In this document: piece by piece, positions 1 to 64,000 of the stretch
How positions within the stretch are numbered: the stretch's first letter is position 1
How the letters are laid out: each line of letters begins with the position of its first letter
NCBI RefSeq assembly: GCF_900090205.1
Contig: NZ_LT607802.1
Span: 1,187,215-1,251,214 of the forward strand
Reading direction: 5' to 3'
Length of the DNA: 64,000 nucleotides
Origin: Vogesella sp. LIG4
Lineage (GTDB): Bacteria > Pseudomonadota > Gammaproteobacteria > Burkholderiales > Chromobacteriaceae
Made by a program: the position numbers and the translations under genes
The notes under the pieces: generated by a model
Databases searched by the model: none
The model's input: the letters and a program-made list of their open reading frames with translations, nothing else
What the model was told of the DNA's origin: nothing

Positions 1-300
1 AAAGCACACGTAGTCGCCGGCCTGCATGCGGTAGCGCGCCTCGCCCAGCAGCAGCGTCAGCTCGCCATCCAGGATCAGCAGGTGTTCCTCCTCCTGCATG
101 TGGTAGTGCAGCGGGCAGGATTGCTTGCCGGGCGCCAGCTCCTCGCGGCTTACGCCCACGTGCTGCGCACCGCCGAATTCGCCCAGCTGTTGATAACGCA
201 GGCCGAAGCGGCTGCCCTGTTGATAACTGTCCCACGGCACGCTGTCGGCGGCGAACGGTTCGTAGGCGCCAATGGTGTTGCGGCTGGTTTTCTGCTCCAT
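1..300 (-). CDS. Cupin-domain protein, C-terminus beyond the window
   Basis: The minus strand is open from an ATG at 300 to the window edge, giving the first 100 residues of a small protein. Residues 60-80 carry a cupin metal-binding signature (His65, His67, Glu71 or Glu72, then a Gly near 79), the pattern of a one-domain Cupin_2 beta barrel. Such proteins are often metal-dependent enzymes or sugar/small-molecule binders, and the substrate cannot be inferred here. No signal peptide is visible, so it is probably cytoplasmic. A small lipoprotein gene lies just upstream on the same strand, 42 bases away, so the two may be co-transcribed. Confidence 0.75.
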   Translation of the reverse strand, partial: MEQKTSRNTIGAYEPFAADSVPWDSYQQGSRFGLRYQQLGEFGGAQHVGVSREELAPGKQSCPLHYHMQEEEHLLILDGELTLLLGEARYRMQAGDYVCF

Positions 301-342
301 ATATGGCTCCGTGGTCAAGGCCCGGTCTGTGCATCCCGGCGC

Positions 343-510
343 TTACTGCGCCGGGGAACTGTCGGTGTGCTGCTGCAGCTGCTGATTGTAGCTGTCCACC
401 TGCTGCTGCACCGCCTTGGCCTTGTCCAGATCCTGGCGCTGGCTTTCGGCGATCTTGCCGCTGGGGCCGCAGGCGGCAAGCAGCAGGCTGAGGAGAATGA
501 CGACGCGCAT
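343..510 (-). CDS. Small lipoprotein, 55 residues
   Basis: This short reading frame starts at an ATG (510) preceded by GGAGAG and encodes 55 residues. The N-terminus is a lipoprotein signal: a short basic start, a Leu-rich core and a lipobox ending LAAC with the lipidated Cys at residue 14. The mature part is only about 40 residues, Gln-rich and helix-prone. Lys follows closely after the Cys and there is no Asp at +2, so outer-membrane sorting is likely. I do not recognise a family; small entericidin-like or Lpp-like peptides have this form. The signal peptide and ribosome binding site make it a credible real gene despite its size. Confidence 0.6.
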   Translation of the reverse strand: MRVVILLSLLLAACGPSGKIAESQRQDLDKAKAVQQQVDSYNQQLQQHTDSSPAQ

Positions 511-694
511 GGTGCTCTCCGGCGGGTAGTGATGCCTGCGTTGTAGGCCAGGTCGCGGCGGGAGGAAAGCCCCAGGGGCGGCTCAGCATGGGGGCACTAC
601 CGCCTTCATGCCGGCATTGTGCAGCGCACTGCAGCGATTGATCCCGTTGACGTGCCGGGTGAGCGCAGCCGCCCCGGCAAAGCCTGGTGAATCA

Positions 695-1150
695 TCACCT
701 GGGCAGCGGGCACTGCGCGGGCGGGCCGGGCTGCTGCTGCGCCAGCAGCGCATCGGCCTGTGCCTGCTCGCCCTCGCTCAATTTGCGGTAGCCACGGCCA
801 TAGCGCCAGCCATAGCCCCAGCGGTAAGGCGTGAAAAAGTATGGCCCGCCGCCCAGGTGCACGCCAGTGAACATCAGCTCGGCAAGCTCGCGGCTGCCGC
901 TGGCCGCCAGCACGCAGCGGCGCAGGGCCTGATCTGCCTGTAGCCGTTGCTCGGCGCTGCCGCCGCGCCAGTAGGCCAGATCATGTGCCACGCAGCAGGT
1001 GCACCAGTCCGCCTTGCCGATCAGCGCCCGGTCCGGAAACAGGCTGCAGCCATCGGTGGTGAACGGCTGCAACGGTGCCTGGGTGGCACAGGCGGACAGC
1101 AGAACGGCACAGCTGGCAATCAGGGATTTGGCAGGGAATGTCATGCGCAT
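695..1150 (-). CDS. Lipoprotein with a phospholipase A2-like CCxxHD motif
   Basis: The 151-residue product begins with a lipoprotein signal (lipobox LLSAC, lipid Cys at about 21). Residues 34-64 hold a DGCSLFPD stretch followed by WCTCCVAHDLAYW. The CCxxHDxxY arrangement (Cys52, Cys53, His56, Asp57, Tyr60) resembles the catalytic helix of secreted phospholipase A2, where His acts as base. The C-terminal third is Tyr/Trp/Gly-rich around 102-122. I infer an exported, disulfide-containing envelope protein, possibly a lipase-like enzyme. The Ca2+-binding loop of classical PLA2 is not evident, so activity is uncertain. Two start codons (residues 1 and 3) are nearly equivalent. Confidence 0.65.
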   Translation of the reverse strand: MRMTFPAKSLIASCAVLLSACATQAPLQPFTTDGCSLFPDRALIGKADWCTCCVAHDLAYWRGGSAEQRLQADQALRRCVLAASGSRELAELMFTGVHLGGGPYFFTPYRWGYGWRYGRGYRKLSEGEQAQADALLAQQQPGPPAQCPLPR

Positions 1151-1280
1151 GCTCCAGGCGGGGGCCAGGGCAAGGTGCGCGTGCGGTGGTAGCGGGTCAA
1201 GCCGCGATGGCTAAACAATGGTGTGCATCGCGGCTGCCGCCGTGGCCGGCTTGGTGCTATGGTGGGCGCCTCGGCCAGGG

Positions 1281-1290
1281 TTGGCCGCAG
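1281..1290 (+). repeat. GTTGGCCGCA motif, example single copy
   Basis: This is one copy of the 9-10 base word found about 50 times in the window (see findings). It lies immediately before the ribosome binding site of the ChrR-like gene. Other single intergenic copies start near 10681, 17109, 24216, 38285, 39958, 46044, 46685, 50777, 56821 and 62605. Copies inside genes are mentioned with those genes. Confidence 0.8.
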
Positions 1291-1980: not shown

Positions 1981-2739
1981 TCAACCCAGCCAGCAGCTCA
2001 GGCCGGCGGTCAGCCACAGCATCAGCGCGAACAGCTGACGCAGCCGCGGCTGTGGCAGGCGGTAGGCCAGCGCCACGCCAGGCGACACGGTGAACAGCCC
2101 GCCCAGCGCCAGGCACAGCCCCAGCGGCCAGTCCACCGCGCCTGCGCGGCCATAGCTGGCCAGCGCCACCAGAGCCCCCGGCAGTACCAGCGCCAGTGCC
2201 AGGCCCTGCGCCTCGGCCTGCGCTTTGCCGAAGCCGCGCACCAGGATGGGCGCCGCCACGATGCCGGCGCCCACGCTGAAGAAACCGGCGCAGGCGCCGC
2301 CCACCAGCCCCACGCCGGGCAGGTAGCGGGCGGGCCACGGCTGCTGCGTGGCGCGCTGCGGCCGTGGCCGCGACTCGCGCCAGAAATAGCCGCCCAGCAG
2401 CAGCAGAAAGCCGGCAAAGATCTGCCGCAACAGCGTCTTGTCCAGCCCCAGCGCCAGGTGCGCGGCCAGCCAGGTGGCCAGCACCGACAGCGCGCCGATG
2501 CGCAGCGCCAGCGACAGCGGGAACGGGCTGCGCTGGCGGTAGCGCCAGAACGCCAGCAGCACATTGGGTACCATCATCACCAGCGCCGTGCCCTGCGCCA
2601 TGGTCTGATCCAGGCCGTAGGCAGCGCCCAGTAGCGGTATCGCCAGAATGCCGCCGCCGATGCCCAGCAGGCCACCCACCCCGCCCAGTACCGCGCCCAG
2701 CAGCAATGCGGCCAACGTTGTCACTGCGCCCAGATGCAT
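1981..2739 (-). CDS. TauE/SafE family sulfite/anion exporter
   Basis: This 252-residue integral membrane protein has about seven or eight hydrophobic segments. Near the N-terminus is the Gly-rich GGLLGIGGGILAIPLL motif typical of the TauE/SafE (DUF81) family. A second Gly/Ala-rich GFFSVGAGIVAAPIL motif in the middle reflects the internal duplication of this fold. Members export organosulfur compounds, sulfite or sulfoacetate; substrate cannot be told here. The gene is divergent from a LysR regulator at 2837, with a 97-base shared promoter region, so control by that regulator is likely. One uptake-like motif lies inside the start of the gene (2707-2715). Confidence 0.85.
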   Translation of the reverse strand: MHLGAVTTLAALLLGAVLGGVGGLLGIGGGILAIPLLGAAYGLDQTMAQGTALVMMVPNVLLAFWRYRQRSPFPLSLALRIGALSVLATWLAAHLALGLDKTLLRQIFAGFLLLLGGYFWRESRPRPQRATQQPWPARYLPGVGLVGGACAGFFSVGAGIVAAPILVRGFGKAQAEAQGLALALVLPGALVALASYGRAGAVDWPLGLCLALGGLFTVSPGVALAYRLPQPRLRQLFALMLWLTAGLSCWLG

Positions 2740-3759: not shown

Positions 3760-3779
3760 TGCGGCCAACGTTGGCCGCA
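3760..3779. terminator. Inverted pair of GTTGGCCGCA, probable bidirectional terminator
   Basis: The sequence TGCGGCCAACGTTGGCCGCA is a perfect palindrome made of two head-to-head copies of the recurrent motif. It sits between the convergent LysR and DUF3224 genes, where a bidirectional terminator is expected. No long T tract follows, so termination strength is uncertain. Confidence 0.5.
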
Positions 3780-4837: not shown

Positions 4838-4857
4838 TGCGGCCAACGTTGGCCGCA
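4838..4857. repeat. Palindrome of two GTTGGCCGCA copies
   Basis: This is the same perfect 20-base palindrome as at 3760, located 10 bases after the rlhA stop codon. It can form a GC-rich hairpin in the rlhA mRNA tail and may add to termination. Confidence 0.6.
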
Positions 4858-4867
4858 AGCCATGCCC

Positions 4868-6853
4868 TTACTGCGGCCGCTGCTTGAAAAAGGTAATCGG
4901 TGCGCTGGCCGGGATATCGCTCGGCGGCGCCGATTTCAAGATGTGCTTCTTCATCTTGCCCATCACGTGCATTTCGCACGGGCGGCATTCGAATTTCAGC
5001 GTGTAGGTCTCGTCGCCGGTTTTCAGGATCATCGGGTCGGCGCGCACCTGGCCCATCACCCCCTTCACGCCCTTGGCCTGCTTGGGGCACAGGTTGTAGG
5101 AGAAGCGCAGGCAGTGCTTGGTGATCATCAGCGAGACCTCGCCCTCTTCCTGGTGCGCTTCGTAGGCCGGCTCGATCACTTCCACGCCGTGCTGCTTGTA
5201 GAAATCCCAGGCCAGCGCGTTGTAGACGTTGGCGAGGTAGCTCAGGTTCTGTTCCGGGTAGGCCACGGGCGGTTCCACCGCGGCCTTGCGCGGCTGGCGC
5301 GGCCAGGCGGCCACGCGTGCAGCCTCCAGTTTTTCCACCGCTTCGCGGCGCAGGCCGTTGATTACCGAGGCCGGCACAAACCACGGCTGGCTGAGTGTGA
5401 GTGCCACATCGTGTGCCTGGAACATGGTATTGCCGAGCTTGGCCACCGCTTCGCGCAGGCTGGCCTCGGCGCGGGCGGCGTCCTTGGCCGGCTCCAGTGC
5501 CATGTTGGCCGCAGCGCTGGCGCTGCAGCCGTCGGCGTCGGTCAGGGTCAGCGTCAGGCCGTCCGCGTTGTCGGCCAGCGTGGCCCACACGCCCACGCGA
5601 CGTTCGGCGGATTTCTTCAGCAGCGCCAGCTCCCAGGCGTGGTCGCGGTTGCGGCTGATGTCGGTGCCGGGCTTGAGGCCGGCCAGCAGCGCCGGGTCGT
5701 TGGGTTCGCAGCGCCACAGCAACAGGCCGCCGGGCGCCTTGCCCACCTGTTTCACGGTGTTGAGCTGCATGCCCACCACTTCGCGTTTCTTCATGAAGTT
5801 GATGCCGTCGCCGTTGCTCATCTGTTCGCTGGTGGCGATCTCCACCCAGCCCTCGCCCACCTGGTGCACGCTGCCGAGGGCAATGCCGACGAACTTGGGC
5901 GAATCGAAGGCGCCGATGTCCTGCTTGCGGCCGGTGGCGAAGTAGTCGGTGGCGCCGCGGTGGAAGGTTTTGTCCGGGTTGGGCGTGAAGAAGATTTCGC
6001 TGCTGCCGCTGGCTGCCGGGGCCAGCTCCGGGCGGCGCTCGAAGATTTCGTCCAGTAGCAGGCGGTAGTGGGCGGTGATGTTCTTCACATAGCTCACGTC
6101 CTTGTAGCGGCCTTCGATCTTCAGCGAGCGCACGCCGGCGTCCAGCAGCGCTTCCAGGTTGTTGCTCTGGTTGTTGTCCTTCATCGACAGCAGGTGCTTG
6201 TCGAAGGCCACCACGCCGCCTTTTTCGTCGGTCAGCGTGTACGGCAGGCGGCAGGCCTGCGAGCAGTCGCCGCGGTTGGCACTGCGGCCGGTGTCGGCAT
6301 GGCTGATGAAGCACTGGCCGGAGTACGCCACGCACAGCGCGCCGTGGATGAAGTATTCGATGGCGGCCGGGTCGGCGCCTTCGGCCACGGTCTGCGCGAT
6401 CTTGGCGATCTGCGGAATGGTCAGCTCGCGCGCCAGCACGATCTGGCTGAAGCCGGCATCGGACAGGAAGCGCGCCTTCTCCGGGCTGCGGATGTCGCAC
6501 TGGGTGGAGGCATGCAGCTGGATCGGCGGCAGATCCATGCGCAGGATGCCCATATCCTGCACGATCAGCGCGTCCACGCCGGCGTCGTACAGTTGCCAGA
6601 TCAGCTTGCGCGCCGCGTCCAGCTCGGCATCGTGCAGGATGGTGTTGAGGGTGGTGAAGATGCGCGCATGGTAGCGGTGGGCGAATTGCACCAGGGAGGC
6701 GATATCTTCCACGCTGTTGCAGGCGTTGTGCCGCGCGCCAAAGCTGGGGCCGCCGATATACACCGCGTCGGCGCCGTGCAGGATGGCCTCGCGGCCGATG
6801 TCGGCGTTCTTGGCGGGGGACAGCAGCTCTACCTGGTGCGGCAACAGACTCAT
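4868..6853 (-). CDS. rlhA: U32 peptidase-family 23S rRNA C2501 hydroxylase RlhA
   Basis: The 661-residue length and content match E. coli RlhA (YdcP), which introduces 5-hydroxycytidine at C2501 of 23S rRNA, rather than the shorter TrhP/YegQ. The N-terminal U32 TIM-barrel core (residues 5-290) includes VELLSPAKN, the AVYIGG strand and a Cys-rich section (FIHGALCVAYSGQCFIS... GDCSQACRLPY) of the U32 signature. The C-terminal part ends with a Cys-containing FECRPCEMHVMGKMKKH segment. The adjacent start and terminator suggest a monocistronic unit. A uptake-like motif copy lies inside the gene at 5505-5513. Family assignment is firm; the RlhA rather than paralogue call rests on length and order. 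Confidence 0.8.
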   Translation of the reverse strand: MSLLPHQVELLSPAKNADIGREAILHGADAVYIGGPSFGARHNACNSVEDIASLVQFAHRYHARIFTTLNTILHDAELDAARKLIWQLYDAGVDALIVQDMGILRMDLPPIQLHASTQCDIRSPEKARFLSDAGFSQIVLARELTIPQIAKIAQTVAEGADPAAIEYFIHGALCVAYSGQCFISHADTGRSANRGDCSQACRLPYTLTDEKGGVVAFDKHLLSMKDNNQSNNLEALLDAGVRSLKIEGRYKDVSYVKNITAHYRLLLDEIFERRPELAPAASGSSEIFFTPNPDKTFHRGATDYFATGRKQDIGAFDSPKFVGIALGSVHQVGEGWVEIATSEQMSNGDGINFMKKREVVGMQLNTVKQVGKAPGGLLLWRCEPNDPALLAGLKPGTDISRNRDHAWELALLKKSAERRVGVWATLADNADGLTLTLTDADGCSASAAANMALEPAKDAARAEASLREAVAKLGNTMFQAHDVALTLSQPWFVPASVINGLRREAVEKLEAARVAAWPRQPRKAAVEPPVAYPEQNLSYLANVYNALAWDFYKQHGVEVIEPAYEAHQEEGEVSLMITKHCLRFSYNLCPKQAKGVKGVMGQVRADPMILKTGDETYTLKFECRPCEMHVMGKMKKHILKSAPPSDIPASAPITFFKQRPQ

Positions 6854-8006: not shown

Positions 8007-8041
8007 AAAAGGTTGGCCGCAAGCTTGCGGCCAACCTTTTG
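8007..8041. terminator. Bidirectional intrinsic terminator built from two uptake-like motifs
   Basis: An A run, GGTTGGCCGCAAGC and its exact complement, and a T run form a long perfect stem centred at 8023/8024. It holds one copy of TTGGCCGCA on each arm (8013-8021 and 8026-8034). It lies 34 bases beyond the thiC stop and has the stem-plus-U-tract form of a rho-independent terminator in both directions. Confidence 0.85.
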
Positions 8042-10674: not shown

Positions 10675-10708
10675 GCGGCAGTTGGCCGCATTGCCTGATT
10701 GTTAATGC

Positions 10709-11610: not shown

Positions 11611-12270
11611 ATGAATTTCGAACAAGCCCGTTTCAACATGGTTGAGCAGCAGATCCGTCCGTGGGATGTGCTCGACACCTCCATCCTCGATTTGCTGTTT
11701 CACGTGAAACGCGAAGATTTCGTGCCGGAAGACAAGCGCACCCTGGCATTTACCGACGTGCAGCTGCCGCTGGAAAACGGCTGCACCATGCTGGAACCGA
11801 AGGTGGAAGCCCGCCTGCTGCAGGACCTGCAGGTGAAAGCCAGCGACAAGGTACTGGAAGTGGGCACCGGCAGCGGCTACATGACCGCACTGCTGGCCGC
11901 GGTGAGCCAGCACGTGTACAGCGTGGACCTGGACGCCGAGCAATCCCAGCGCGCTGCGGCCAACCTGAAGACCGCCGGCATCCGCAATGTGACCCTGAGT
12001 GTGGGCAACGGCATCGACGGCCTGGCCTCGCAGGCGCCGTTCGACGTGATCTTCCTCGGCGGCTCGGTACCGGTGGTGCCGGAAGCGCTGAAGGCGCAGC
12101 TGGCCGTGGGCGGCCGCCTGGCGGTGATCGTGGGCGATGCCCCGGTAATGATCGCCAAGATCATCACCCGCGTGTCGGAAAGCGCCTACCAGGAAAGCGT
12201 GAGCTTCGACACCAATATCGCACGCCTGCAGCAGCTGGACGCCATCGAGCCGTCCCGCTTCAGCTTCTGA
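11611..12270 (+). CDS. Protein-L-isoaspartate methyltransferase family protein
   Basis: The ATG at 11611 follows CCCCGGAG and gives 219 residues. Residues 70-180 form a SAM-binding Rossmann fold with motif I VLEVGTGSGYMTALLA, an acidic strand end (VYSVDLD) and motif FDVIFLGG. The N-terminal MVEQQIRPWDVLD and the VKREDFVP stretch are the PCMT family hallmark. Family members repair isoaspartyl residues, but this subgroup, often found next to a rhodanese and tolC in betaproteobacteria, may act otherwise. The rhodanese gene begins 2 bases after the stop, so they form an operon. A parS-like site lies within codons 29-34 and an uptake-like motif at 11955. Confidence 0.8.
   Translation: MNFEQARFNMVEQQIRPWDVLDTSILDLLFHVKREDFVPEDKRTLAFTDVQLPLENGCTMLEPKVEARLLQDLQVKASDKVLEVGTGSGYMTALLAAVSQHVYSVDLDAEQSQRAAANLKTAGIRNVTLSVGNGIDGLASQAPFDVIFLGGSVPVVPEALKAQLAVGGRLAVIVGDAPVMIAKIITRVSESAYQESVSFDTNIARLQQLDAIEPSRFSF
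11696..11711. other. parS-like centromere site
   Basis: TGTTTCACGTGAAACG matches the bacterial parS consensus TGTTTCACGTGAAACA at 15 of 16 positions, with a perfect 14-base palindromic core (11697-11710). It lies within the methyltransferase coding sequence, as parS sites often do. ParB would bind here to seed the partition complex. Confidence 0.75.
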
Positions 12271-12772: not shown

Positions 12773-13486
12773 ATGAGTTACCTATCCCCCGCTATCGAAT
12801 CCCTGCCCACCGCCTGGCGCGATGTGCTGGCCGCTCCGGCGCTGGCCGCGCAGCTGCAGGCCATCGAGGCGCGTCTTGCCGCCCGCGCCGCTGACGGCGT
12901 GGCGATCTATCCGCCGCGCGAGCTGATCTTCAATGCACTGCGCCACGTGGCGCCGCAGGACGTGCGGGTGGTGATCCTGGGGCAGGACCCGTACCACGGT
13001 GCCGGCGAGGCCATGGGGCTGAGTTTTTCGGTGCCGGCCGGGGTGAAGATTCCGCCCAGCCTGCGCAATATGTACAAGGAGCTGGCCAGCGACCTGGGCG
13101 TCGCCCCGGCCGCCAGCGGCGACCTGTCGCACTGGGCGCGCCAGGGCGTGCTGCTGCTCAACACCTCGCTGACGGTGGAGGCCGACAATGCCGGCAGCCA
13201 CGGCAAGCTCGGCTGGCAGCAAATCACGGATGCGCTGATCGACGCGGTGAGCGCGCAAAACCCCGGTTGCGTGTTCCTGCTGTGGGGCAACTGGGCGCAG
13301 GGCAAGGCCGAGCGCATCGATGCCGGCCGCCACGCGGTGCTGAAGGCGGTGCATCCGTCTCCGCTGTCCGCCAGCCGCGGCTTCTTCGGCTGCCGTCACT
13401 TCTCGCAGGCCAATCAATGGTTGGCCGCACGCGGCCGCGGCGAAATCGCCTGGGGCGCGCCGGCTACGCAGGACCGCCTGTTCTAG
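12773..13486 (+). CDS. ung: Uracil-DNA glycosylase (family 1)
   Basis: Ung removes uracil from DNA to begin base-excision repair. The 237-residue product starts at the ATG at 12773 (GAGTGAGC upstream; the longer frame from 12620 reads through the terminator). It has the water-activating motif GQDPYHG, the SFSVPAGVKIPPSLRNMYKEL segment, and the DNA-intercalating loop HPSPLSA near residue 203. These place it in the classical family 1. It is monocistronic and converges with the isochorismatase gene. A uptake-like motif lies at 13421-13429. Confidence 0.95.
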   Translation: MSYLSPAIESLPTAWRDVLAAPALAAQLQAIEARLAARAADGVAIYPPRELIFNALRHVAPQDVRVVILGQDPYHGAGEAMGLSFSVPAGVKIPPSLRNMYKELASDLGVAPAASGDLSHWARQGVLLLNTSLTVEADNAGSHGKLGWQQITDALIDAVSAQNPGCVFLLWGNWAQGKAERIDAGRHAVLKAVHPSPLSASRGFFGCRHFSQANQWLAARGRGEIAWGAPATQDRLF

Positions 13487-15098: not shown

Positions 15099-15491
15099 TC
15101 AAGCTGGGTTGTTTGCTGGCAGAACTGCGCTGTCGTGGTGGCGGGAACGCTGCCCGCGCTGATGCCGGCTGGTTTCGGTTCGCCCCGCCTGCAGCGCTTG
15201 ATTCAGTACCTGCAAGGCCGCCATGTGCGCGCCGCTGCCGCATAGGAACAGGTCGATGGCGGCATAGCCGTACTCTGGCCAGGTGTGGATGCTGATATGC
15301 GATTCGGCCAGCAGCAGTACGCCGGTGACGCCCTGCCCCGCGCCGAAATGATGGAAGTGTCCTGCCAGCACATGGGCTCCCGCCGCACGGGCCGCAGCGT
15401 AAAGTGCGTGCTCCACGTGTGAGGCATCGGCGAGAAGGTTGGCCGCACAGTCATACAGGTCGGCCAGCAGGTGTTCGCCCAGGTGGCTCAT
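15099..15491 (-). CDS. speD: S-adenosylmethionine decarboxylase SpeD (prokaryotic)
   Basis: SpeD makes decarboxylated SAM, the aminopropyl donor for spermidine. The 130-residue proenzyme has the autocleavage site LAESHISIHTWPE, where Glu63-Ser64 would be cut to create the pyruvoyl group, plus His68 and a catalytic Cys84 (DLFLCGSG). The C-terminal 30 residues are basic and disordered, longer than in the minimal bacterial enzyme. It is the last gene of a five-gene minus-strand operon and overlaps the preceding small gene by 4 bases. Spermidine synthase is encoded divergently at 18639. An uptake-like motif lies at 15439. Confidence 0.92.
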   Translation of the reverse strand: MSHLGEHLLADLYDCAANLLADASHVEHALYAAARAAGAHVLAGHFHHFGAGQGVTGVLLLAESHISIHTWPEYGYAAIDLFLCGSGAHMAALQVLNQALQAGRTETSRHQRGQRSRHHDSAVLPANNPA

Positions 15492-15640: not shown

Positions 15641-17100
15641 CGGTTATTCAGCGGCGCCCACAATATGCAGGTCGCCATAAACAGAATGATAAAAACAGCA
15701 CTACTGTCGCTGTTGATCAAGGGCGGCAGATTGATGCACCAGAGCAGGACGCTGGCGCCGGTAGCGATTCGTTGCTGAGTCTCAAGCCGCTTGGCTGGTG
15801 ATCCGCTAAAGGCTGGCTCCAGCGGTGCTTCATTGCCGAACCAGCGTGCGATGTCGGCATTGCTGATGCGACTGCTGCTGCTCCAGGTGAGCTCCAGCTT
15901 GCTTTCTTCGCTGGCCAGCAGCGTCTTGCCGTCGGCACTGGCAAACTCGCTGATGCTGACGCGTTCGCCGACACGTGCCCGCCATGGAAAGGCGCCAGCT
16001 GCACAGGCGATCTCGCCATCGTAGATCGGGTAGCGCGGCTCGAAACTTTTTTTACCCCATATCGCGTAGTCCGCCGTGACCTGGTCCACCCAGACATCCA
16101 TCAGGGTGCCCAAGTACCAGCCGTCGCTGGTTTCTGTCAGCCAGCGGAAGCCTAGCAGGGGTTCGTACAGCAGGTATTCGTTCCAGCTGCTGCTGCGATC
16201 CTTTGTGACCACCCAGCCCAGCAGGCCGATGATGGTCCAGGTCTTGCCGTCTATCTTCGCTTCGCTGCCATTGGCCAGGGTGAAACGCTGTCCCAGAGTC
16301 TGCAGTGCCTGGTGTTGCCCCAGTACGGTGGCGCGCTCACCCTGGATATCCACTTCGCTGCCGCACGACGGGCAGTTCAGGTGGGTGGCTGTGCCGGCAC
16401 GGTAGTCGAGGCCCGCGCCGCAGCTGGGGCATTCGAGTTGTTGCACGCTGCCCTTCAGCTTGCCGGTGGCTGTCTGGATCATGCGCTCGTCGCGCAGGCG
16501 CTGCATATTGAGCTGTTTCAGCGTCACTGCTTCGCCCAGATACACCTGCGGCACATCCTCGCTGTAGTCCAGGGTCAGGAAGCTGCCACCACTGCGGGCG
16601 TCGGCCACCTTGATATCGTAGCCGGGGCCGACGGCAAACGGCAGCTCGCCCTCTCCGGCTACACAGCGGGCCTCGCGAATGTCGCAGAAGGTGTAGTCGC
16701 GTTTGTTGTAAGGCCAGGTCTTGCCGGCTCGGAGGTCTGTAAAGCGGGGTGGATTCTGGTACCGCCCCTGCGACTGGGTCAGTACGTACTGGCCGACGGC
16801 ATCGGCTAGCCAGCCGCTCTCGCCATCGTCGAACAGGATGTGCCATTCGTTCCAGCTGCCGCTGTCGTATTGCAGCTGGATGCGGCCAACCACGGTGAAC
16901 TGGCGGCCGTGCCAGATGCCGCAACTGGCAATCTGCAGGGGTGAGTAGTCATCCAGTAGCTCGGCCATCTTGCCAAGGTCACGCACGCTATCGGCATCGC
17001 GCAGCAGGGTGCTGCGGCAATAGCTGCACACCGCCAGTACCGAACTGGTGGCGTGAAAGCGCACTTCAGCGCCGCAGGCAGGGCAGGCTACGCGGTACAT
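15637..17100 (-). CDS. DUF4178 protein with zinc ribbons
   Basis: The 487-residue protein starts with a treble-clef-like ribbon (CPACG, then CSYC at about residues 8 and 26), followed by a DUF4178 beta domain (about 50-200, with WNEWHILFDDGESGWL). A second ribbon (CPSCG and CPSCG near 221-244) precedes a second DUF4178 domain (SSSWNEYLLYEPLLGFRWL). Two hydrophobic helices close the protein, anchoring it in the inner membrane. DUF4178 proteins are repeatedly found with DUF350, SPFH proteins and polyamine enzymes. The function is unknown; a sensor or adaptor is inferred. It sits in the middle of the minus operon. Confidence 0.85.
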   Translation of the reverse strand: MYRVACPACGAEVRFHATSSVLAVCSYCRSTLLRDADSVRDLGKMAELLDDYSPLQIASCGIWHGRQFTVVGRIQLQYDSGSWNEWHILFDDGESGWLADAVGQYVLTQSQGRYQNPPRFTDLRAGKTWPYNKRDYTFCDIREARCVAGEGELPFAVGPGYDIKVADARSGGSFLTLDYSEDVPQVYLGEAVTLKQLNMQRLRDERMIQTATGKLKGSVQQLECPSCGAGLDYRAGTATHLNCPSCGSEVDIQGERATVLGQHQALQTLGQRFTLANGSEAKIDGKTWTIIGLLGWVVTKDRSSSWNEYLLYEPLLGFRWLTETSDGWYLGTLMDVWVDQVTADYAIWGKKSFEPRYPIYDGEIACAAGAFPWRARVGERVSISEFASADGKTLLASEESKLELTWSSSSRISNADIARWFGNEAPLEPAFSGSPAKRLETQQRIATGASVLLWCINLPPLINSDSSAVFIILFMATCILWAPLNNR

Positions 17101-17134
17101 CAGGCAGGGTTGGCCGCAAGCAGGGACATGAGTA

Positions 17135-43124: not shown

Positions 43125-45470
<2,346 letters not shown>

Positions 45471-47641: not shown

Positions 47642-49633
47642 ATGGTCACCCGAACCGAGCTAGCCAATGCCGTGCGTTTCCTGTCCATGGACGCCGTGGA
47701 AAAGGCAAAATCCGGTCACCCCGGCGCCCCGATGGGCATGGCGGATATCGCTGAAGTATTGTGGCGCGATCATCTGAAACACAACCCCGCCCATCCGGAC
47801 TGGGCCAACCGCGACCGCTTCGTGCTGTCCAACGGCCATGGCTCGATGCTGCTGTACAGCCTGCTGCACCTCACCGGCTACGACCTGTCGATCGAAGACC
47901 TCAAGAACTTCCGCCAACTGCACAGCCGCACCCCGGGCCACCCGGAATACGGCTACGCACCGGGCGTGGAGACCACCACCGGCCCGCTGGGCCAGGGCAT
48001 CACCAACGCGGTGGGCCTGGCGCTGGCCGAGAAGATCCTGGCTGCCGAATTCAACCGTGACGGCTTCCAGGTAGTGGATCACTACACCTACGCCTTCATG
48101 GGCGATGGCTGCCTGATGGAAGGCATCAGCCATGAAGCCTGCTCGCTGGCCGGCACCTGGGGCCTCAACAAGCTGATCGGCTTCTACGACGACAACGGCA
48201 TCTCCATCGACGGCGACGTGGATGGCTGGTTCACCGACGACACCCCGGCGCGCTTCGAAGCCTACGGCTGGCAGGTGATCCGCAACGTGGACGGCCACGA
48301 TGCGCAGGAAATCCAGACCGCCATCGACACCGCCAAGAAGAGCAGCGACCGCCCCACCCTGATCTGCTGCAAGACCCTGATCGGCAAGGGCGCCCCGAAC
48401 AAGGAAGGTGGCCACGACGTGCACGGCTCGCCGCTGGGCAGCGCCGAGATCGCCGCCGCACGCGCCAACCTGCAATGGGCCTACGAGCCGTTCGTGGTGC
48501 CGCAGACCATCTACGAAGCCTGGGATTGCCGCGCCAAGGGCGCCGGCCTGCAGGCCGCGTGGGACAAGCTGTTCGCCGACTACGCCGCTGCTCACCCGGA
48601 ACTGGCTGCCGAGTTCATCCGCCGCATGAAAGGCGAGCTGCCGGCCGGCTGGAATGAACATGTTGCCGCCAAGATCGCTGCGGCCAACGACAAGGGCGAA
48701 ACCATCGCCACCCGCAAGGCGTCGCAGAACGCCATCGCCGCCTTCGCCGAGGTACTGCCGGAACTGGTGGGCGGCTCCGCCGACCTCACCCCGTCCAACC
48801 TCACCAACTGGCCGGGTTCGGTAGCGGTTACCCCGGAAGCCGGCGGTAACTACGTGCACTACGGTGTGCGCGAGTTCGGCATGGCCGCCATCCTCAACGG
48901 CCTGGCGCTGCATGGCGGCGTGAAGCCGTTCGGCGCCACCTTCCTGATGTTCAGCGAATACGCGCGCAATGCACTGCGCATGGCGGCGCTGATGAAGATC
49001 AACCCGGTGTTCGTGTTCACCCACGATTCCATCGGCCTGGGCGAAGACGGCCCCACCCACCAGCCGGTGGAACAGATCGCCACCCTGCGCCTGATCCCGA
49101 ACATGGCGGTATGGCGCCCGTGCGACACCGTGGAATCCATGGTGGCCTGGGCCGAGGCGCTGGCCGCCAAGGATCACCCGTCCTGCCTGATCTTCAGCCG
49201 CCAGAACCTGCCCTTCGTCACCCGTGACGCCGCGCAGATTGACGGCGTGAAAAAAGGCGGCTACGTGCTGCGCGATGCGGCGGGCGCCAAGGCCGTGCTG
49301 ATCGCTACCGGTTCCGAAGTGGAGCTGGCGCTGAAGGCGCAGGAAGCCCTGGCCGCCGAAGGCATCGCGGTACGCGTGGTTTCCATGCCGTGCACCCGCG
49401 CCTTCGACCAGCAGGACAAGGCCTACATCGCCTCGGTACTGCCGGCAGGCGTGCCGCGCGTGGCCATCGAGGCCGGCGTGACCGACGGCTGGCGCAAGTA
49501 CGTGGGCCTGGAAGGCGAAGTTGTCGGTATCGACCACTTCGGCGAATCCGCCCCGGCCGGCGTGCTGTTCAAGGAATTCGGCTTTACCGTGGAAAACGTG
49601 GTCGCCAAGACCAAGAACGTCATCCGCGCATAA
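47642..49633 (+). CDS. tkt: Transketolase
   Basis: Transketolase moves two-carbon units in the pentose phosphate and, potentially, Calvin pathways. The 663-residue product has the TPP motif [18 protein letters not shown] with the trailing [11 protein letters not shown], the catalytic His in [10 protein letters not shown], and the C-terminal [16 protein letters not shown] region. The length and sequence are those of class I bacterial TktA. It opens the tkt-gap-pgk-fba block, all on the plus strand. A terminator-like stem follows. A uptake-like motif lies at 48679. Confidence 0.97.
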
Positions 49634-50765: not shown

Positions 50766-50807
50766 ACCGGGACTGATGCGGCCAACCTGCGGGTTGGCGC
50801 CAGCCTG

Positions 50808-51192: not shown

Positions 51193-52365
51193 ATGCAATT
51201 CAAGAAACTCACCGACCTGGCCCTGGCCGGCAAGCGCGTACTGATCCGCGTGGACATGAACGTGCCGGTAAAAAATGGCGTGATCGGTGACGACACCCGC
51301 ATCCGCGCCAGCCTGCCGTCCATCGAGCACTGCCTCAAGGCCGGCGCCAGCGTGATCCTGATGACCCACCTGGGCCGCCCCACCGAAGGCGAGCCGAAGC
51401 CGGAAGACAGCCTGGCACCGGTAGCCGCCCGCCTGTCCGAACTGCTGGGCAAGGCCGTTGCCGTGTCCGACAACTGGCAGGCCGGCCTGCAGTTGGCCGC
51501 AGGTGACGTGGTGATGCTGGAGAACGTGCGCCTGAACAAGGGCGAGAAAAAGAACAACGAAGAGCTGGGCAAGGCATACGCCAGCCTGTGCGACATCTTC
51601 GTCAACGATGCTTTCGGCACCGCGCACCGCGCCGAAGCCTCCACCCATGCCGTGGCCAAGTTCGCCCCGACCGCCTGCGCCGGCGTACTGCTGGCTGCCG
51701 AGCTGGAAGCGCTGGGCAAGGCGCTGCAGGCGCCGGCCCGCCCGCTGGTGGCCATCGTTGCCGGCTCCAAGGTCTCGACCAAGCTCACCATCCTGGAAGC
51801 ACTGGCCGACAAGGTGGATCAGTTGATCGTGGGTGGTGGCATCGCCAACACCTTCCTGCTGGCCGAAGGCAAGACCATCGGCAAGTCGCTGGCCGAAGCC
51901 GACCTGGTGGAAGAGGCGAAGAAAGTCATCGCCAAGATCCGCGCCCGTGGTGGCGACGTGCCGCTGCCGAGCGACGTGGTGTGTGCCGGCGAGTTCGCCG
52001 AAACCGCCGCCGCCACGCTGAAGAACGTGGCCGAAGTGACTGCCGGCGACATGATCCTGGACATCGGCCCGCAATCGGCTGCCGAACTGGCCGCCATCGT
52101 GGCCCAGGCCGGCACCGTGGTGTGGAACGGCCCGGTGGGCGTGTTCGAGTTTGCGCAGTTCAGCGACGGCACCCGCGTGCTGGGCGAAGCCATCGCCAAG
52201 TCGCCGGCGTTCTCGATTGCCGGCGGTGGCGACACCCTGGCGGCCATCGCCAAGTTCGGCCTCACCGACGACATCAGCTACATCTCCACCGGTGGCGGCG
52301 CCTTCCTGGAATTCCTGGAAGGCAAGGAACTGCCGGCAGTGGCGATTCTGGCCGAGCGCGCTTAA
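51193..52365 (+). CDS. pgk: Phosphoglycerate kinase
   Basis: The 390-residue product starts at the ATG at 51193 (TGAGGAGAAAAC upstream) with [21 protein letters not shown], carries MTHLGRPT, and ends in the nucleotide-binding region [12 protein letters not shown] and GGGDTLAAI. It makes ATP from 1,3-bisphosphoglycerate. It is part of the tkt-gap-pgk-fba block, though separated from gap by the MITE-like element. A uptake-like motif lies at 51493. Confidence 0.97.
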
Positions 52366-52369: not shown

Positions 52370-52470
52370 CCGCGGACGACCTGGCGAGCCAGAGCGGGGC
52401 AAGGCGAAGAGGTACTCGCCATGTAAGGTTCTGGCTGCAGGTCGTTGCTTGCGGCCAACGTTGGCCGCAA
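52370..52470. repeat. Diverged R1 fragment and motif palindrome
   Basis: The stretch GACCTGGCGAGCCAGAGCGG with GGCAAGGCG resembles an R1 repeat core. It is followed at 52450-52469 by the palindrome TGCGGCCAACGTTGGCCGCA, two uptake-like motifs head to head. The palindrome could act as a terminator for pgk. Confidence 0.5.
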
Positions 52471-54400: not shown

Positions 54401-54420
54401 TGCGGCCAACGTTGGCCGCA
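54401..54420. repeat. Palindrome of two uptake-like motifs
   Basis: This is TGCGGCCAACGTTGGCCGCA, directly after the fba terminator. It is the fourth identical 20-base palindrome in the window. Confidence 0.65.
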
Positions 54421-56804: not shown

Positions 56805-56835
56805 TCTGCCTCCCGGCAGGGTTGGCCGCAAGCAA

Positions 56836-59571: not shown

Positions 59572-60156
59572 TTAGACGGCAATCTTGAGTTGCGTCAAGA
59601 ACAGCTGCTCCAGCAGGCGCAGTGGCAGCATCTGGATTACCTGGATAATCAGCAGCAGCACCAGCGGCGACAGATCCACCCCGCCCACGTTGGCCGCACG
59701 GAACGGCTTGAGGTAGGGGCGGGTGAGTGCTTCCAGTATCGGCGACAGCGCGTTGTACGGGCTGACCCAGCTCAGGATGGCCTGCACGATCACCGCGCCG
59801 GTGAGCAGGTTGAGCGACTGGCGGAACAGCTCCAGCAGCGCCAGCAGCGAGAGGCCGAACCAGGTCTGCGGGCTGACGAAGTTGTACGGGATGCGCCCCA
59901 GTGCCACCACCACAGCCATGACCAGCAGCTGCACCAGCAGCGCCACCAGGATGGAGGCGCTGTCGTAGCCGTGCCAGGAAGGCACGCGCCGCCGCAGCGG
60001 CAGCACCACGAAATTGGTTACCGCCATCACGAACTGGTTGAGCGGGTGCTTGTGCGGTGCATGCGACAGCTGCAGGTAAAAGCGCAGCAGCAGCACCAGC
60101 ACGAACAGCCCGCCCACGGTGCTGATGAGAAACGTCAGGGTTTCCAGAAACAGCAT
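59572..60156 (-). CDS. yggT: YggT family membrane protein
   Basis: The 194-residue protein has two repeats of the YggT motif, each a hydrophobic hairpin: VLVLLLRFYLQLSHAP and, later, AILSWVSPYNALSPILEALTRPYLKPFR. Members help osmotic adaptation and potassium handling; the role here is inferred from family only. It follows proC with 3 bases between, in the common yggS-proC-yggT order. An uptake-like motif lies at 59690. Confidence 0.9.
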   Translation of the reverse strand: MLFLETLTFLISTVGGLFVLVLLLRFYLQLSHAPHKHPLNQFVMAVTNFVVLPLRRRVPSWHGYDSASILVALLVQLLVMAVVVALGRIPYNFVSPQTWFGLSLLALLELFRQSLNLLTGAVIVQAILSWVSPYNALSPILEALTRPYLKPFRAANVGGVDLSPLVLLLIIQVIQMLPLRLLEQLFLTQLKIAV

Positions 60157-60159: not shown

Positions 60160-60963
60160 TTAGTCCTTGGAGAGTTCTTCGCCCATTTCCACCGAACGGG
60201 CACGGCAATCCATCGCGCCGGCGATGATCGCCTGTTTAACACCTTCCGCCTCGAAGCGGAAGATGGCGCGCTCGGTGGTGCCGCCCTTGGACATCACGTT
60301 CTGGCGCAGGGTTGCCACCGGCAGCGGGCTCTGCCGCGCCAGTTCCACCGCGCCGTCGAAAGTGGCGATCACCAGGCGGCGTGCCTCGTCCTCGCTGAAG
60401 CCCGACTGCCTGGCGGCTTCGATCATGCTTTCGATGAAGTAGAACACGTAGGCCGGGCCACTGCCGGACACGCAGGTGATGTCGTCAATGCCGCTTTCTT
60501 CCGCCAGCCAGGTGGTGGTGCCTACCGACTGCATGATGCGGGTGGCGGCATCGCGGTCCGCCGCGCCGATGTTGGCCGCAGCGTACAGCCCGGACACGCC
60601 CTTGCCGACCATGGCCGGGGTGTTGGGCATGACGCGCACGATGCGCTGGCTGCCCAGCCAGCGTGCCAGTGCGTCGCCGCGGATGCCGGCAGCGATGGAA
60701 ACCACCAGCGCGCCGCCCAGCTTAGGGGCCAGCGCCAGGCATACGTCGCGCAGCACCTGCGGCTTCACCGCCAGCACCACTACGTCGTCCACGCCGAACT
60801 GTGCCGGTGCCTCGGCCAGCGGTTCCACGCCGAACTGCTGCTGCAGCTGGGTGCGTTTCTCCTCGTGCAGCTCCACCACGCGGATGTGATGCTCGCCACT
60901 GCCAACCAGGCCGCCGATGATGGCTGTCGCCATATTGCCGCCGCCGATGAAGGTAATCTGCAT
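60160..60963 (-). CDS. proC: Pyrroline-5-carboxylate reductase
   Basis: ProC makes proline from pyrroline-5-carboxylate. The 267-residue product starts MQITFIGGGNMATAIIGGL, an NADPH-binding motif, and has VMPNTPAMVGKGVSGLYAAAN and the CVSGSGPAYVFYFIESMIEAA and SKGGTTERAIFRFEAEGV signatures. It lies in the yggS-proC-yggT cluster, 50 bases downstream of yggS. A uptake-like motif lies at 60572. Confidence 0.95.
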   Translation of the reverse strand: MQITFIGGGNMATAIIGGLVGSGEHHIRVVELHEEKRTQLQQQFGVEPLAEAPAQFGVDDVVVLAVKPQVLRDVCLALAPKLGGALVVSIAAGIRGDALARWLGSQRIVRVMPNTPAMVGKGVSGLYAAANIGAADRDAATRIMQSVGTTTWLAEESGIDDITCVSGSGPAYVFYFIESMIEAARQSGFSEDEARRLVIATFDGAVELARQSPLPVATLRQNVMSKGGTTERAIFRFEAEGVKQAIIAGAMDCRARSVEMGEELSKD

Positions 60964-61013: not shown

Positions 61014-61706
61014 TCAGGCCGGATAGTGGCGGGCGCCAAAAATGGCGGTGCCGACACGCACCATGCTGCTGCCGGCCGCCACCGCCTGCGCCATATCGGC
61101 CGACATGCCCATGGACAGCGTATCCAGCTGCATGCCCTCGGCCGCCATCTGCTGTTGCAGCTGGCGCAACACGCCGAAGCGTGCGGCCAACAGTGCCGTG
61201 TCCGGCGTGGGCTCCGGAATGCACATCAGCCCGCGCAGGCGCAGCTGCGGCAGTGCCGCCACCGCGCGCAGCAGCGCCGGCGCTTCCGCCAGCTCGCAAC
61301 CGCTCTTGCTGTCCTCGCCGGACACGTTCACCTGCACGCAGACATTCAGTGGCGGCATGCCGGCGGGGCGCTGCGCCGACAGGCGTTCGGCGATCTTCAG
61401 GCGTTCTATCGAATGCACCCAGTGCGCCACCTCGGCCACCGGGCGGGTCTTGTTGGATTGCAGCGGGCCGATGAAATGCCACTCGATGGCGAGATCCGCC
61501 AGCTGCTGCGCCTTGGTGGCCAGTTCCTGCACGTAGTTTTCGCCGAAGGCGCGCTGCCCGGCCGCGTATGCCTCGCGGATTGCTTCCGCCGGAAAAGTCT
61601 TGCTGACGGCCAGCAGCGTCACCTCGTCGGGGCTGCGTCCGGCGGCGGTGGCCGCGGCGGCCAGGCTGTCGCGTACGGTCTGCAATGCGTGTGCCAATTG
61701 CGTCAT
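61014..61706 (-). CDS. yggS: PLP homeostasis protein (YggS/PROSC family)
   Basis: The 230-residue PLP-binding TIM-barrel-like protein has the PLP Lys in LLAVSKTFPAEAI, GENYVQEL, WHFIGPLQSNKTRPVAEVAHWVHSI and a closing LSMGMSADMAQAVAAGSSMVRVGTAIFG. It buffers pyridoxal phosphate. It is upstream of proC and divergent, at distance, from a hypothetical membrane gene at 61878. A uptake-like motif lies at 61182. Confidence 0.94.
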   Translation of the reverse strand: MTQLAHALQTVRDSLAAAATAAGRSPDEVTLLAVSKTFPAEAIREAYAAGQRAFGENYVQELATKAQQLADLAIEWHFIGPLQSNKTRPVAEVAHWVHSIERLKIAERLSAQRPAGMPPLNVCVQVNVSGEDSKSGCELAEAPALLRAVAALPQLRLRGLMCIPEPTPDTALLAARFGVLRQLQQQMAAEGMQLDTLSMGMSADMAQAVAAGSSMVRVGTAIFGARHYPA

Positions 61707-61877
61707 GATGCGTGGTTTCGTTGGGTCCGGTAACGGTGTTGCCATGTTAGCGGTTTGGCCGCCCGCTGGCGATTTTGCCAGCGGCCAGCATTCCCGCCCG
61801 GCGGCATGCGCTTGAGCTATAAAACCAGAGCCACCGTCCTGCCCATGCTCCGGGCTGGCCTGGCACAGGAGAAGCAC

Positions 61878-62585
61878 ATGCCGATTCGTGACGAAAGCAC
61901 GCGAGCCAACCGACTGAAAGAGGTCGAGAAGAAATGCGCGCTGTGCCAGGAAAAATATCGGGGCCTGGAACATGAACTGGGCATCGCCGACAAGGCGGCG
62001 GTGATCGAAGAGGACGGCTATGGCGGCGTGCCGGTGGAGCTGACCGCCTTGCGCGAGCTGTTCGGCCCCACGCGCAGGCCACAGCAGGGGCAGGCTACGC
62101 AGCACAGGAGTTATGACTACATCAGCAGCCGCATCAGCAAGGTGCGCCGCAAACTGCGCGAGCTGTATTTCTCGGTGCCCGACGTGGCGCAGCGCAAGGC
62201 GCTGATCACCGCCCGGCGCCAACCCCGGCGCCTGGTATGCGAGGCGCTGCAGGACGAGCTGAATGTTGCCCGGCACACCCTGCAAACCACCAAGCACCGC
62301 TCGCACGCCAAGCCCTGGCTGCTGGGCGCGGCGGTGGGCGCCGGTGCGGTACTGCTGGGCGCTGCGCTGGCGCATCTGTACGGCGCACTGGCCGGCATGG
62401 TGGCGGGGTTTTTTGTCGGCAAATGGCTGGTGGACAACCACAACAAGCAGCTGCAGCGCCAGACGCGCAGCGAGCAGTTCGATGCCGACAGTCTGGCCAA
62501 TCTGCTGCAGACCTGCCGCCGCGCGCCGGAGTGGTTTTCCGAGGCGGAGGAAAACAGCGGTGAGCGCGACGCGTACGAAGTCTGA
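61878..62585 (+). CDS. Hypothetical membrane-anchored protein with coiled coil
   Basis: The ATG at 61878 (ACAGGAGAA upstream) gives 235 residues. The first 45 are basic and contain LKEVEKKCALCQEKYRGLEHEL, a coiled-coil-like segment with a CxxC pair. A basic helix region follows (SSRISKVRRKLRELYFSV), then one or two hydrophobic segments (LLGAAVGAGAVLLGAALAHLYGALAGMVAGFFVG), and a soluble tail. I do not recognise a family. It lies between yggS and pilT on the plus strand, 235 bases ahead of pilT, and a uptake-like motif follows it at 62605. Confidence 0.6.
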   Translation: MPIRDESTRANRLKEVEKKCALCQEKYRGLEHELGIADKAAVIEEDGYGGVPVELTALRELFGPTRRPQQGQATQHRSYDYISSRISKVRRKLRELYFSVPDVAQRKALITARRQPRRLVCEALQDELNVARHTLQTTKHRSHAKPWLLGAAVGAGAVLLGAALAHLYGALAGMVAGFFVGKWLVDNHNKQLQRQTRSEQFDADSLANLLQTCRRAPEWFSEAEENSGERDAYEV

Positions 62586-62820
62586 AGCGCCGCGCATGCC
62601 CAAGGTTGGCCGCAGCCGGCATAGCGGCAGACCAATGTTCTGCCCGGCGGGGTACGGCCGCCGGCCCAGGCAGGTGCTGGCGGCATGGAAGCCCCGCCAA
62701 GCGCCGTGTATGATTTATCAAAACAACTGTTACAAGCCTGCCATTTAACGCATCACTACTGCGCGCCGGTTTTTTGTGGAGCAATGGCCTGGCGGCCATT
62801 CCGGGCGAACGGGGAACTCA

Positions 62821-63861
62821 ATGGAAATTTCCGACCTGCTGTCCTTCACGGTCAAGAACAAGGCATCCGACCTGCATCTGTCCGCCGGTCTGCCGCCGCT
62901 GATCCGCGTGCATGGCGACATCCGCCGCATCAACCTGCCGCCGATGGACCACCACGACGTGCACGACATGGTGTACGACATCATGAACGACTATCAGCGC
63001 AAGAACTTCGAGGACAGCTTCGAGTGCGACTTCTCGTTCGAGGTGCCCAACCTGGCACGCTTCCGGGTGAACACCTTCATGCAGAACCGCGGCATGGGCG
63101 CGGTGTTCCGCGTGATTCCGTCCAAGGTGCTGTCGCTGGAAGACCTGAACGCGCCGAAGATTTTCCGCGATATTTCCGAATACCCGCGCGGCATCGTGCT
63201 GGTGACCGGGCCGACCGGCTCCGGTAAATCCACCACCCTGGCGGCGATGGTCGATTACATCAACAGCAACTACTACGCGCACATTCTCACCGCGGAAGAC
63301 CCGATCGAATTCGTGCACGAGAGCAAGAAGTCGCTGATCAACCAGCGTGAACTGGGTACCCAGACCCGCAGCTTCGCCAATGCGCTGAAGAGCGCGCTGC
63401 GTGAAGACCCGGACGTGATCCTGGTGGGCGAGATGCGCGACCTGGAAACCATCCGCCTGGCGCTGACTGCGGCGGAAACCGGCCACCTGGTATTCGGTAC
63501 CCTGCATACCAGCAGCGCGGCCAAGACCATCGACCGTATCGTGGACGTGTTCCCGGCAGCGGAAAAGGACATGGTGCGCGCCATGCTGTCGGAAAGCCTG
63601 CGCGCGGTGATTTCGCAGGCACTGCTGAAGACCAAGGACGGCGCCGGCCGGGTGGCGGCGCACGAAATCATGATCGGCACCCCGGCGATTCGCAACCTGA
63701 TCCGTGAGAACAAGCTGGCGCAGATCAACTCGATGATCCAGACCGGCCAGCAATATGGCATGCAGACACTGGACCAGTGTCTGACCGACCTGGTGCGCCG
63801 CAATATCGTGTCCGACGAAGAAGCGCGCGGCAAGGCCACCAACAAGGACAACTTCCTGTAA
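62821..63861 (+). CDS. pilT: Type IV pilus retraction ATPase PilT
   Basis: PilT pulls in type IV pili and powers twitching and DNA uptake. The 346-residue ATPase starts at the ATG at 62821 with MEISDLLSFTVKNKASDLHLSAG. It has Walker A GPTGSGKST near 130-138, the Asp box and Walker B region LVGEMRDLETI, the His box HLVFGTLHT, and the PilT-specific AIRNLIRE motif. PilU follows after 12 bases. The pair is typical of naturally competent Neisseriales and Pseudomonas. Confidence 0.97.
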   Translation: MEISDLLSFTVKNKASDLHLSAGLPPLIRVHGDIRRINLPPMDHHDVHDMVYDIMNDYQRKNFEDSFECDFSFEVPNLARFRVNTFMQNRGMGAVFRVIPSKVLSLEDLNAPKIFRDISEYPRGIVLVTGPTGSGKSTTLAAMVDYINSNYYAHILTAEDPIEFVHESKKSLINQRELGTQTRSFANALKSALREDPDVILVGEMRDLETIRLALTAAETGHLVFGTLHTSSAAKTIDRIVDVFPAAEKDMVRAMLSESLRAVISQALLKTKDGAGRVAAHEIMIGTPAIRNLIRENKLAQINSMIQTGQQYGMQTLDQCLTDLVRRNIVSDEEARGKATNKDNFL

Positions 63862-63873
63862 GCGGAGCGGGTG

Positions 63874-64000
63874 ATGGAAAAGGAACAGGCATCAAAATTT
63901 ATCCATGATCTGCTGCGCCACGCGGTCAGCAAGAACGCGTCCGATATCTTCATTGCCGCGGAATTTCCGCCGGCGATGAAAATCGACGGCAAGATCACCC
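63874..64000 (+). CDS. pilU: PilT-dependent accessory ATPase PilU, partial
   Basis: Only the first 42 residues are present, from the ATG at 63874 (GCGGAGCGGGTG upstream) to the window edge. The start MEKEQASKFIHDLLRHAVSKNASDIFIAAEFPPAMKIDGKIT is characteristic of PilU, a retraction ATPase paralogue encoded next to PilT. It aids PilT in pilus retraction. Confidence 0.85.
   Translation, partial: MEKEQASKFIHDLLRHAVSKNASDIFIAAEFPPAMKIDGKIT

Follow-up and report, generated by a model that had tools for sequence, protein, structure and literature searches.

Why does a single 10-base word, GTTGGCCGCA, recur so often in the chromosome of Vogesella sp. LIG4 (Chromobacteriaceae)? The question is raised by a stretch of 64,000 nucleotides (contig NZ_LT607802.1, positions 1,187,215 to 1,251,214), which we call the window, and for which an earlier reading (the original prediction) had proposed a dialect of the DNA uptake sequence (DUS). 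We put the probability at roughly 0.85 that GTTGGCCGCA, usually preceded by AA and then G or C, is the DUS of Vogesella and is read by a ComP-like pilin, and that sister genera have systems of the same kind. What computation shows directly is the word and how far it has spread, retention at one locus, the genes of the machinery, and a ComP-like pilin together with its predicted fold.

Abundance, spread and retention of the word

The window holds 51 exact copies of GTTGGCCGCA, 25 on the (+) and 26 on the (-) strand, and 52 copies of TTGGCCGCA. Dinucleotide shuffling gave a mean of 0.70 copies (maximum of 4 in 100 shuffles), and GTTGGCCGCA is the top 10-mer of the window (65.0% GC; Markov expectation 0.5–0.9). 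The original prediction, which had counted about 52 copies, 51 of them with a preceding G, in both orientations, is reproduced by these numbers. Because six of the 51 copies sit in one tandem array (three 197-bp units with 96% matches, two copies per unit, all on one strand), the number of independent sites is nearer 47. Heuristic reading frames, a crude form of gene call, span 85% of the window and contain 23 of the 51 copies. Six close inverted pairs are present, as had been described. The Neisseria word GCCGTCTGAA, said to be missing, indeed has 0 copies in the window, and a degenerate pattern designed to cover Neisseriaceae dialects occurs there at chance (13 vs 11.9 expected).

The over-representation extends to the complete genome, a single contig of 4,147,242 bases, with 2,895 copies of GTTGGCCGCA, 1,458 forward and 1,437 reverse, or about 698 per Mb. 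This is about 360 times the count for the reversed word (4 + 4 = 8).

The behaviour of the word was characterized in 464 kb of the LIG4 genome, comprising the window and twenty samples, where 312 copies were found against 3.3 expected. Its single-base variants total 95 (about 105 expected), and since they stay near expectation, nine positions of the word are strictly kept, position 10 alone being relaxed (G 23 vs 4.8 expected; C 13 vs 6.9). At the 377 sites of the 8-mer GTTGGCCG, the base at -1 is G in 49% and C in 29%, with A at -2 in 53% and at -3 in 47%, which bears out the flank preference originally proposed; beyond A, A and G or C, the flanks outside the 10-mer have little in common. All twenty-seven neighbouring copies with starts at most 30 bp apart are inverted, and spacings of 30–200 bp are scarcer than random (17 vs 33). 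The word is enriched between genes. Tiles of 5 kb at 65–70% GC average 4.13 copies and those below 60% GC 0.5–1.0; the thirteen low-GC tiles (of ninety-two) hold about 10 copies vs 54 expected, low GC being only a proxy for recently acquired DNA.

Two low-GC stretches were inspected individually. One (L022, C1:1050001-1070000) is an island that carries candidate defence genes (padloc HEC-05, PDC-M59A) as well as a type I restriction-modification system, and has only two copies of GTTGGCCGCA in 20 kb. The other (L020) reads like a polysaccharide cluster, and the word is scarce there too.

We surveyed sixty-one genomes of the family, in genera numbered g1 to g10 (g1 is Vogesella; g8 includes Paludibacterium purpuratum, G040), and 300 genomes of the order: four Vogesella (LIG4 included), five others of the family and 291 of other families. 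GTTGGCCGCA has 1,871–2,895 copies in each of the thirteen Vogesella genomes, with 1110 + 1163 in V. oryzae (G055), and 8–58 in the other forty-eight of the family; the maximum among the 291 genomes of other families is 52. In this survey, the word is abundant throughout Vogesella and in no other genus, which answers the call of the original prediction for a comparison with related Chromobacteriaceae.

Unsupervised word counts in samples returned GTTGGCCGAG as the top word in g5, and GTTGGCCGAA in g6, g7, g9, g10 and G010, an outlier within g2. Whole-genome counts of GTTGGCCGAR (both strands) are 2,017 and 1,668 in g5, 744 and 2,223 in g6, 1,258 in g7, 1,872 in g9, 1,152, 238 and 942 in g10, and 1,386 in G010; these ten sister-genus genomes with GTTGGCCGAA or GTTGGCCGAG thus span 238–2,223 copies. 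Counts are 24–59 in the thirteen Vogesella, and among word-poor genomes 26–64 in the other nine of g2, 31–93 in g3 (nineteen genomes), 39–64 in g4 (four) and 37–154 in g8 (six). In total, twenty-three of the sixty-one genomes are word-bearing (thirteen with the CA form, ten with the AR form) and thirty-eight word-poor. Two g8 genomes, G040 (154) and G043 (130), lie far over their reversed controls (34 and 28), and their copies are perhaps relics; many word-poor genomes are two- to threefold over control, which we take as composition. The maximum in the 291 genomes of other families is 104 (G351, control 32). No comparable other top word appeared in g2, g3, g4 or g8, in samples of 80–165 kb each that a rarer one could escape. 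The procedure was checked on the eight genomes of family f44 as a positive control and recovered DUS words in seven of them (none in G147); we take f44 to be Neisseriaceae from its words and, by eye, from a ComP in G286 equal to the 2nba chain. G010 has a second enriched word beside GTTGGCCGAA, namely GTTTGCCGAA (13 in 77 kb, 0.30 expected; L222, L223, L123, L124).

At the comP–pilQ locus, compared across the thirteen Vogesella genomes, the word is conserved between species better than the sequence beside it. Where the sequence can be aligned, 241 of 396 word copies are identical, compared with 883 of 3,775 flanking 10-mers (78 non-independent pairs). Across six pairs that share no genome, 35/54 words and 172/533 flanks are identical (Fisher p = 4e-6), and composition-matched controls agree. 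The contrast is clear in four of the six; G052–G053 has only three words (3/3 vs 20/30 flanks), and in G050–G060 words are kept in 2/11 cases vs 11/108 for flanks.

A ComP-like pilin and the uptake machinery

The original prediction had advised looking for comP. A ComP-like minor pilin is encoded near pilQ in all thirteen Vogesella genomes, each time with a GspH/FimT-type pilin gene directly upstream; in LIG4 the comP-like gene occupies C1:1559002-1559421. Its predicted fold matches Neisseria ComP best among the structures compared, with 20–25% identity in the structural alignments to ComP. It shares WPxLP with Neisseria ComP, and its predicted beta1–beta2 loop has 12 residues vs 14. The best Protein Data Bank (PDB) sequence matches of the g5 pilin are also Neisseria ComP (2m3k, 5hz7, 2nba), and Pfam ComP_DUS (cut-off 27.3 bits) scores 32.4 in the congener G057, 62.1 in g5 and 52.7 in g6, a level that the word-poor pilins scanned also pass.

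A motif, N-x-D-x-G/D (N95-G99 in the LIG4 copy), lies between predicted strands 85-89 and 102-107, that is, in the beta1–beta2 loop. This loop and the DD region of Neisseria ComP contact DNA (PMC4906244). The loop motif (NxDxG) occurs in 22 of the 23 word-bearing genomes and in 0 of the 34 word-poor genomes with a pilin of ComP type (Fisher 7e-15, kinship ignored). None of the four g4 genomes has such a pilin. Within a genus, the only contrast for the motif is that between G010 and the nine further g2 genomes.

Competence genes, whose absence would have told against the original prediction, are present: PilQ, a PilT-family ATPase, and ComEC and DprA, both in 14/14 genomes examined, word-poor ones included (DprA is in two pieces in G045). 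These machinery genes are needed but not telling for word-guided uptake. In one word-rich Vogesella (G049:C9:9030-9572), the ComEC domain is split into two matches, between which the central part of the model is lacking, perhaps through deletion or poor assembly.

Taken as a mechanism, the ComP-like minor pilin on retractable type IV pili would bind the word and so favour word-bearing DNA for uptake. Pilus retraction through PilQ, followed by ComEC and DprA, would bring that DNA into the cell. Recombination would then replace unmarked alleles by marked ones, so that the word would accumulate and be kept genome-wide. In sister genera, a system of this kind would work with GTTGGCCGAA or GTTGGCCGAG.

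Several side observations concern the pilins. Between LIG4 and V. oryzae (L155, L164), FimT is about 51% and ComP about 55% identical, while nearby MsbA, AroB and PilQ reach 95, 87 and 80%; judged from these identities, the FimT and ComP pilins evolve fast despite the same word. G224 of f44 (L183, L217) has king/sim-type words in 15 kb and a ComP with only two cysteines, which suggests that ComPs without a DD region may exist in Neisseriaceae as well. Pilin_GH matches (PF16734; eight of sixty-one genomes, none past the cut-off) were rejected as the receptor, being judged PilE-type and part of a minor-pilin operon from the one inspected.

Known systems and rival explanations

With the DUS of Neisseriaceae, the Vogesella word shares its length of ten bases, occurrence on both strands, inverted pairs, group-specific variants and a ComP-like pilin, but it belongs to another family. 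Copy density is about 470–700 per Mb in Vogesella (genome sizes rounded), compared with about 1,900 copies in 2.2–2.3 Mb in Neisseria. GTTGGCCGAA shares 7/10 bases with simDUS and mucDUS in the same register, and the Vogesella word 6/10 at best with any Neisseriaceae dialect. A match of at least 7/10 has p = 0.023 in fixed register and 0.098 with strands and shifts free, and kinship of the word to Neisseria words by similarity alone was dropped at this p of about 0.10. The A at +10 of Neisseriaceae dialects is found in GTTGGCCGCA and GTTGGCCGAA but not in the g5 form, GTTGGCCGAG. The GCA ending of the Vogesella word parallels king3DUS. An A/C change at +9 among DUS dialects is described in Frye 2013 (PMC3630211).

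A number of observations weigh against an uptake word read by this pilin. According to Frye 2013, all eight Neisseriaceae dialects have CTG at +6 to +8, where GTTGGCCGCA and GTTGGCCGAR have CCG. The DD region is present in all seven ComPs modelled in PMC12061091, but the Vogesella pilin lacks it, and its four-cysteine spacing occurs in 0 of 57 ComP-type pilins of the family. The globular part has two cysteines, both C-terminal, in 54 of the 57 (G000 and G010 have a third upstream, and G043 has four, three of them adjacent); the f44 pilins have the DD spacing in six of eight cases, with four cysteines elsewhere in G147 and only two in G224. The LIG4 copy scores 23.8 bits, under the ComP_DUS cut-off of 27.3, and all three word-poor pilins scanned score over it. 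The ComP profile is also matched at about 1e-31 by pilins of family f41 (G184, G221, G254), and G254 has no enriched word in 40 kb, so the profile score by itself says little. The other two ComP entries reach 8.9 and 7.5 in VIA-align, on a par with other pilins. Word-poor genera retain the ComP-like pilin, ComEC and DprA. The word-bearing G045 (80% complete) has a ComP-like pilin with MPNLP, lacking both the loop motif and the W of WPxLP; moreover, the motif was defined after the alignment had been seen, and genomes within a genus are non-independent. Globular net charge, considered with the electropositive DNA-binding face of Neisseria ComP in mind, averages about zero in both groups (0.13 word-bearing, -0.24 word-poor, p = 0.66; +3 in the LIG4 copy, 3.75 for the eight f44 pilins) and was dropped as a marker of binding. 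Finally, the evidence for retention comes from a single locus.

Since both the CTG core and the DD region are absent, we class neither the word among the Neisseriaceae DUS dialects nor the pilin among ComPs of the DD type, and we expect that the system would work like them. The original prediction is supported: the genome-wide abundance, the confinement to one genus, the competence genes and the ComP-like pilin all speak for the uptake reading, and its placing of the DNA near Chromobacteriaceae is correct. As worded, ‘dialect’ in the Neisseriaceae sense is not supported, with the CTG core missing and the resemblance non-significant once strands and shifts are free.

The word might instead be an uptake word read by another surface protein, either the FimT-like pilin or some other minor pilin, with the ComP-like pilin structural. 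The GspH/FimT-type gene directly before comP in 13/13 Vogesella invites this reading, as FimT is a DNA-binding minor pilin in Legionella (PMC8897410, with no sequence selectivity reported). The lack of a DD region, a net charge independent of the word and the persistence of ComP-like pilins in word-poor genera point the same way. We nevertheless consider it unlikely, as the motif that tracks the word is in the ComP-like pilin, the pilin in which the pattern was examined. A binding site for a chromosome-maintenance system (Chi-like, KOPS-like, nucleoid occlusion or a macrodomain protein) would also account for copies that run into the thousands, are spread evenly and persist from species to species. 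Chi and KOPS motifs are oriented by strand, however, and with the sign of GC skew as a proxy for replichore, 162 copies lie on the G-rich and 150 on the C-rich strand across twenty-one stretches; this absence of strand bias speaks against a replication-linked motif of the Chi/KOPS type. Inverted pairing, the preference for intergenic gaps, scarcity in low-GC islands and a word that takes another form in sister genera and is absent from other members of the family make any such system very improbable.

That the word belongs to a short mobile or terminator-like repeat family (REP or MITE type) with no uptake role is suggested by some copies that form hairpins with T-runs (8007-8040) and by the six in one tandem array. 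Most copies stand alone, however (of 312, the close pairs number 27), heuristic genes contain 23 of the 51 in the window, and the same word is found in 13/13 congeners and a changed one in sister genera. The flanks, which share little past A, A and G or C, speak against a repeat family as well, and we hold this explanation to be highly improbable. By reading, the word contains the palindrome GGCC, so a target of restriction-modification or methylation also comes to mind. Restriction-modification sites are usually avoided, whereas this word is enriched; variants that differ at one base but retain GGCC occur about as often as expected or less often, position 10 excepted, and the identity of the final two bases is important and differs among genera. 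This last explanation is hardly credible.

If the word is a DNA uptake sequence read by a ComP-like pilin, uptake of DNA guided by a label probably occurs far outside the family in which it was discovered. To our knowledge, two bacterial families, Neisseriaceae and Pasteurellaceae, have uptake words. The uptake signal sequences of Pasteurellaceae are an abundant short word read at the cell surface, unrelated to GTTGGCCGCA; the principle would be the same as in Vogesella and the word different. Their receptor is still debated (PMC12616744). We see an even chance that Chromobacteriaceae hold a second, separate lineage of GTTGGCCG-based uptake words, read by a DD-less ComP through the beta1–beta2 loop. 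If so, sequence-labelled uptake either predates Neisseriaceae or arose twice, dialect changes (CA, AA and AG endings) are traceable within one family, and repeated losses have occurred (most of g2, g3, g4 and Paludibacterium), the word decaying once the loop motif is gone. A largely environmental family whose word core differs and whose receptor is simpler could then serve as a natural experiment on the reading of DNA sequence by a pilin, the joint evolution of words and receptors and the loss of such systems, and would allow a prediction of which Vogesella DNA should transform which species.

Frye 2013 (PMC3630211) reports no obvious DUS in Laribacter, Lutiella, Pseudogulbenkiania or two Chromobacterium genomes. 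In the PMC papers that our literature searches covered, and judged by title, no paper among the matches listed links GTTGGCCGCA to DNA uptake, and none describes GTTGGCCGAA as a DUS; no paper on a ‘DNA uptake sequence’ in Vogesella was found. By title, Chromobacteriaceae with DNA uptake sequence returned Neisseriaceae taxonomy papers only, and Vogesella with natural transformation only food resistance genes and snail metagenomes; Pseudogulbenkiania with uptake sequence returned Frye 2013 alone. The word is new within the literature covered, and Table S1D of Frye 2013 (words of Pseudogulbenkiania, Lutiella, Chromobacterium and Laribacter) may hold an unrecognized relative.

Word copies and pilus genes in the window

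The PilT/PilU-family ATPase listed in Table 1 is likely part of the uptake motor. The response regulator adjoining the PilS-like gene is probably PilR, a name that follows from its position.

Table 1. Copies of GTTGGCCGCA and pilus-related genes in the window (window coordinates).
Feature	Position	Strand	Remark
word copy	1280..1289	+	exact match
word copy	2707..2716	-	exact match
two abutting word copies	3760..3779		inverted pair (- then +)
two abutting word copies	4838..4857		inverted pair (- then +)
word copy	5504..5513	+	exact match
two facing word copies (+ then -)	8012..8035		stem of terminator-like hairpin, T-runs both sides (8007-8040)
word copy	10681..10690	+	exact match
word copy	11955..11964	-	exact match
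word copy	13420..13429	+	exact match
word copy	15438..15447	+	exact match
word copy	16881..16890	-	exact match
word copy	17109..17118	+	exact match
word copy	19219..19228	-	exact match
word copy	20980..20989	-	exact match
word copy	21562..21571	+	exact match
word copy	22500..22509	-	exact match
word copy	24216..24225	+	exact match
word copy	25101..25110	-	exact match
word copy	26578..26587	+	exact match
two facing word copies (+ then -)	28670..28693		
tandem array, three 197-bp units	30192..30781		six (-) word copies at 30253, 30317, 30451, 30515, 30648, 30712
word copy	35491..35500	-	exact match
word copy	35691..35700	+	exact match
word copy	38285..38294	+	exact match
word copy	39958..39967	+	exact match
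word copy	40022..40031	-	exact match
sigma-54 response regulator adjoining PilS-like gene (context)	40103..41497	-	PF00158, PF00072
PilS-like sensor kinase (context)	41601..43121	-	PF25323 6TM_PilS 107.7 bits, cut-off 27
word copy	43425..43434	+	exact match
word copy	45399..45408	+	exact match
word copy	46044..46053	-	exact match
word copy	46685..46694	-	exact match
word copy	48679..48688	-	exact match
word copy	50777..50786	-	exact match
word copy	51492..51501	+	exact match
two abutting word copies	52450..52469		inverted pair (- then +)
two abutting word copies	54401..54420		inverted pair (- then +)
word copy	56821..56830	+	exact match
word copy	59689..59698	+	exact match
word copy	60571..60580	+	exact match
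word copy	61182..61191	-	exact match
word copy	62605..62614	+	exact match
PilT/PilU-family type IV pilus ATPase (start codon not refined)	62776..63861	+	TIGR01420 511.5 bits, cut-off 319.1

A pilA paralogue adjoins the major pilin gene at L111:9928 (+), with relatives in L117, L119 and L121 (four genomes from three word-bearing genera). Its C-terminal stretch is conserved around a tryptophan and a cysteine.

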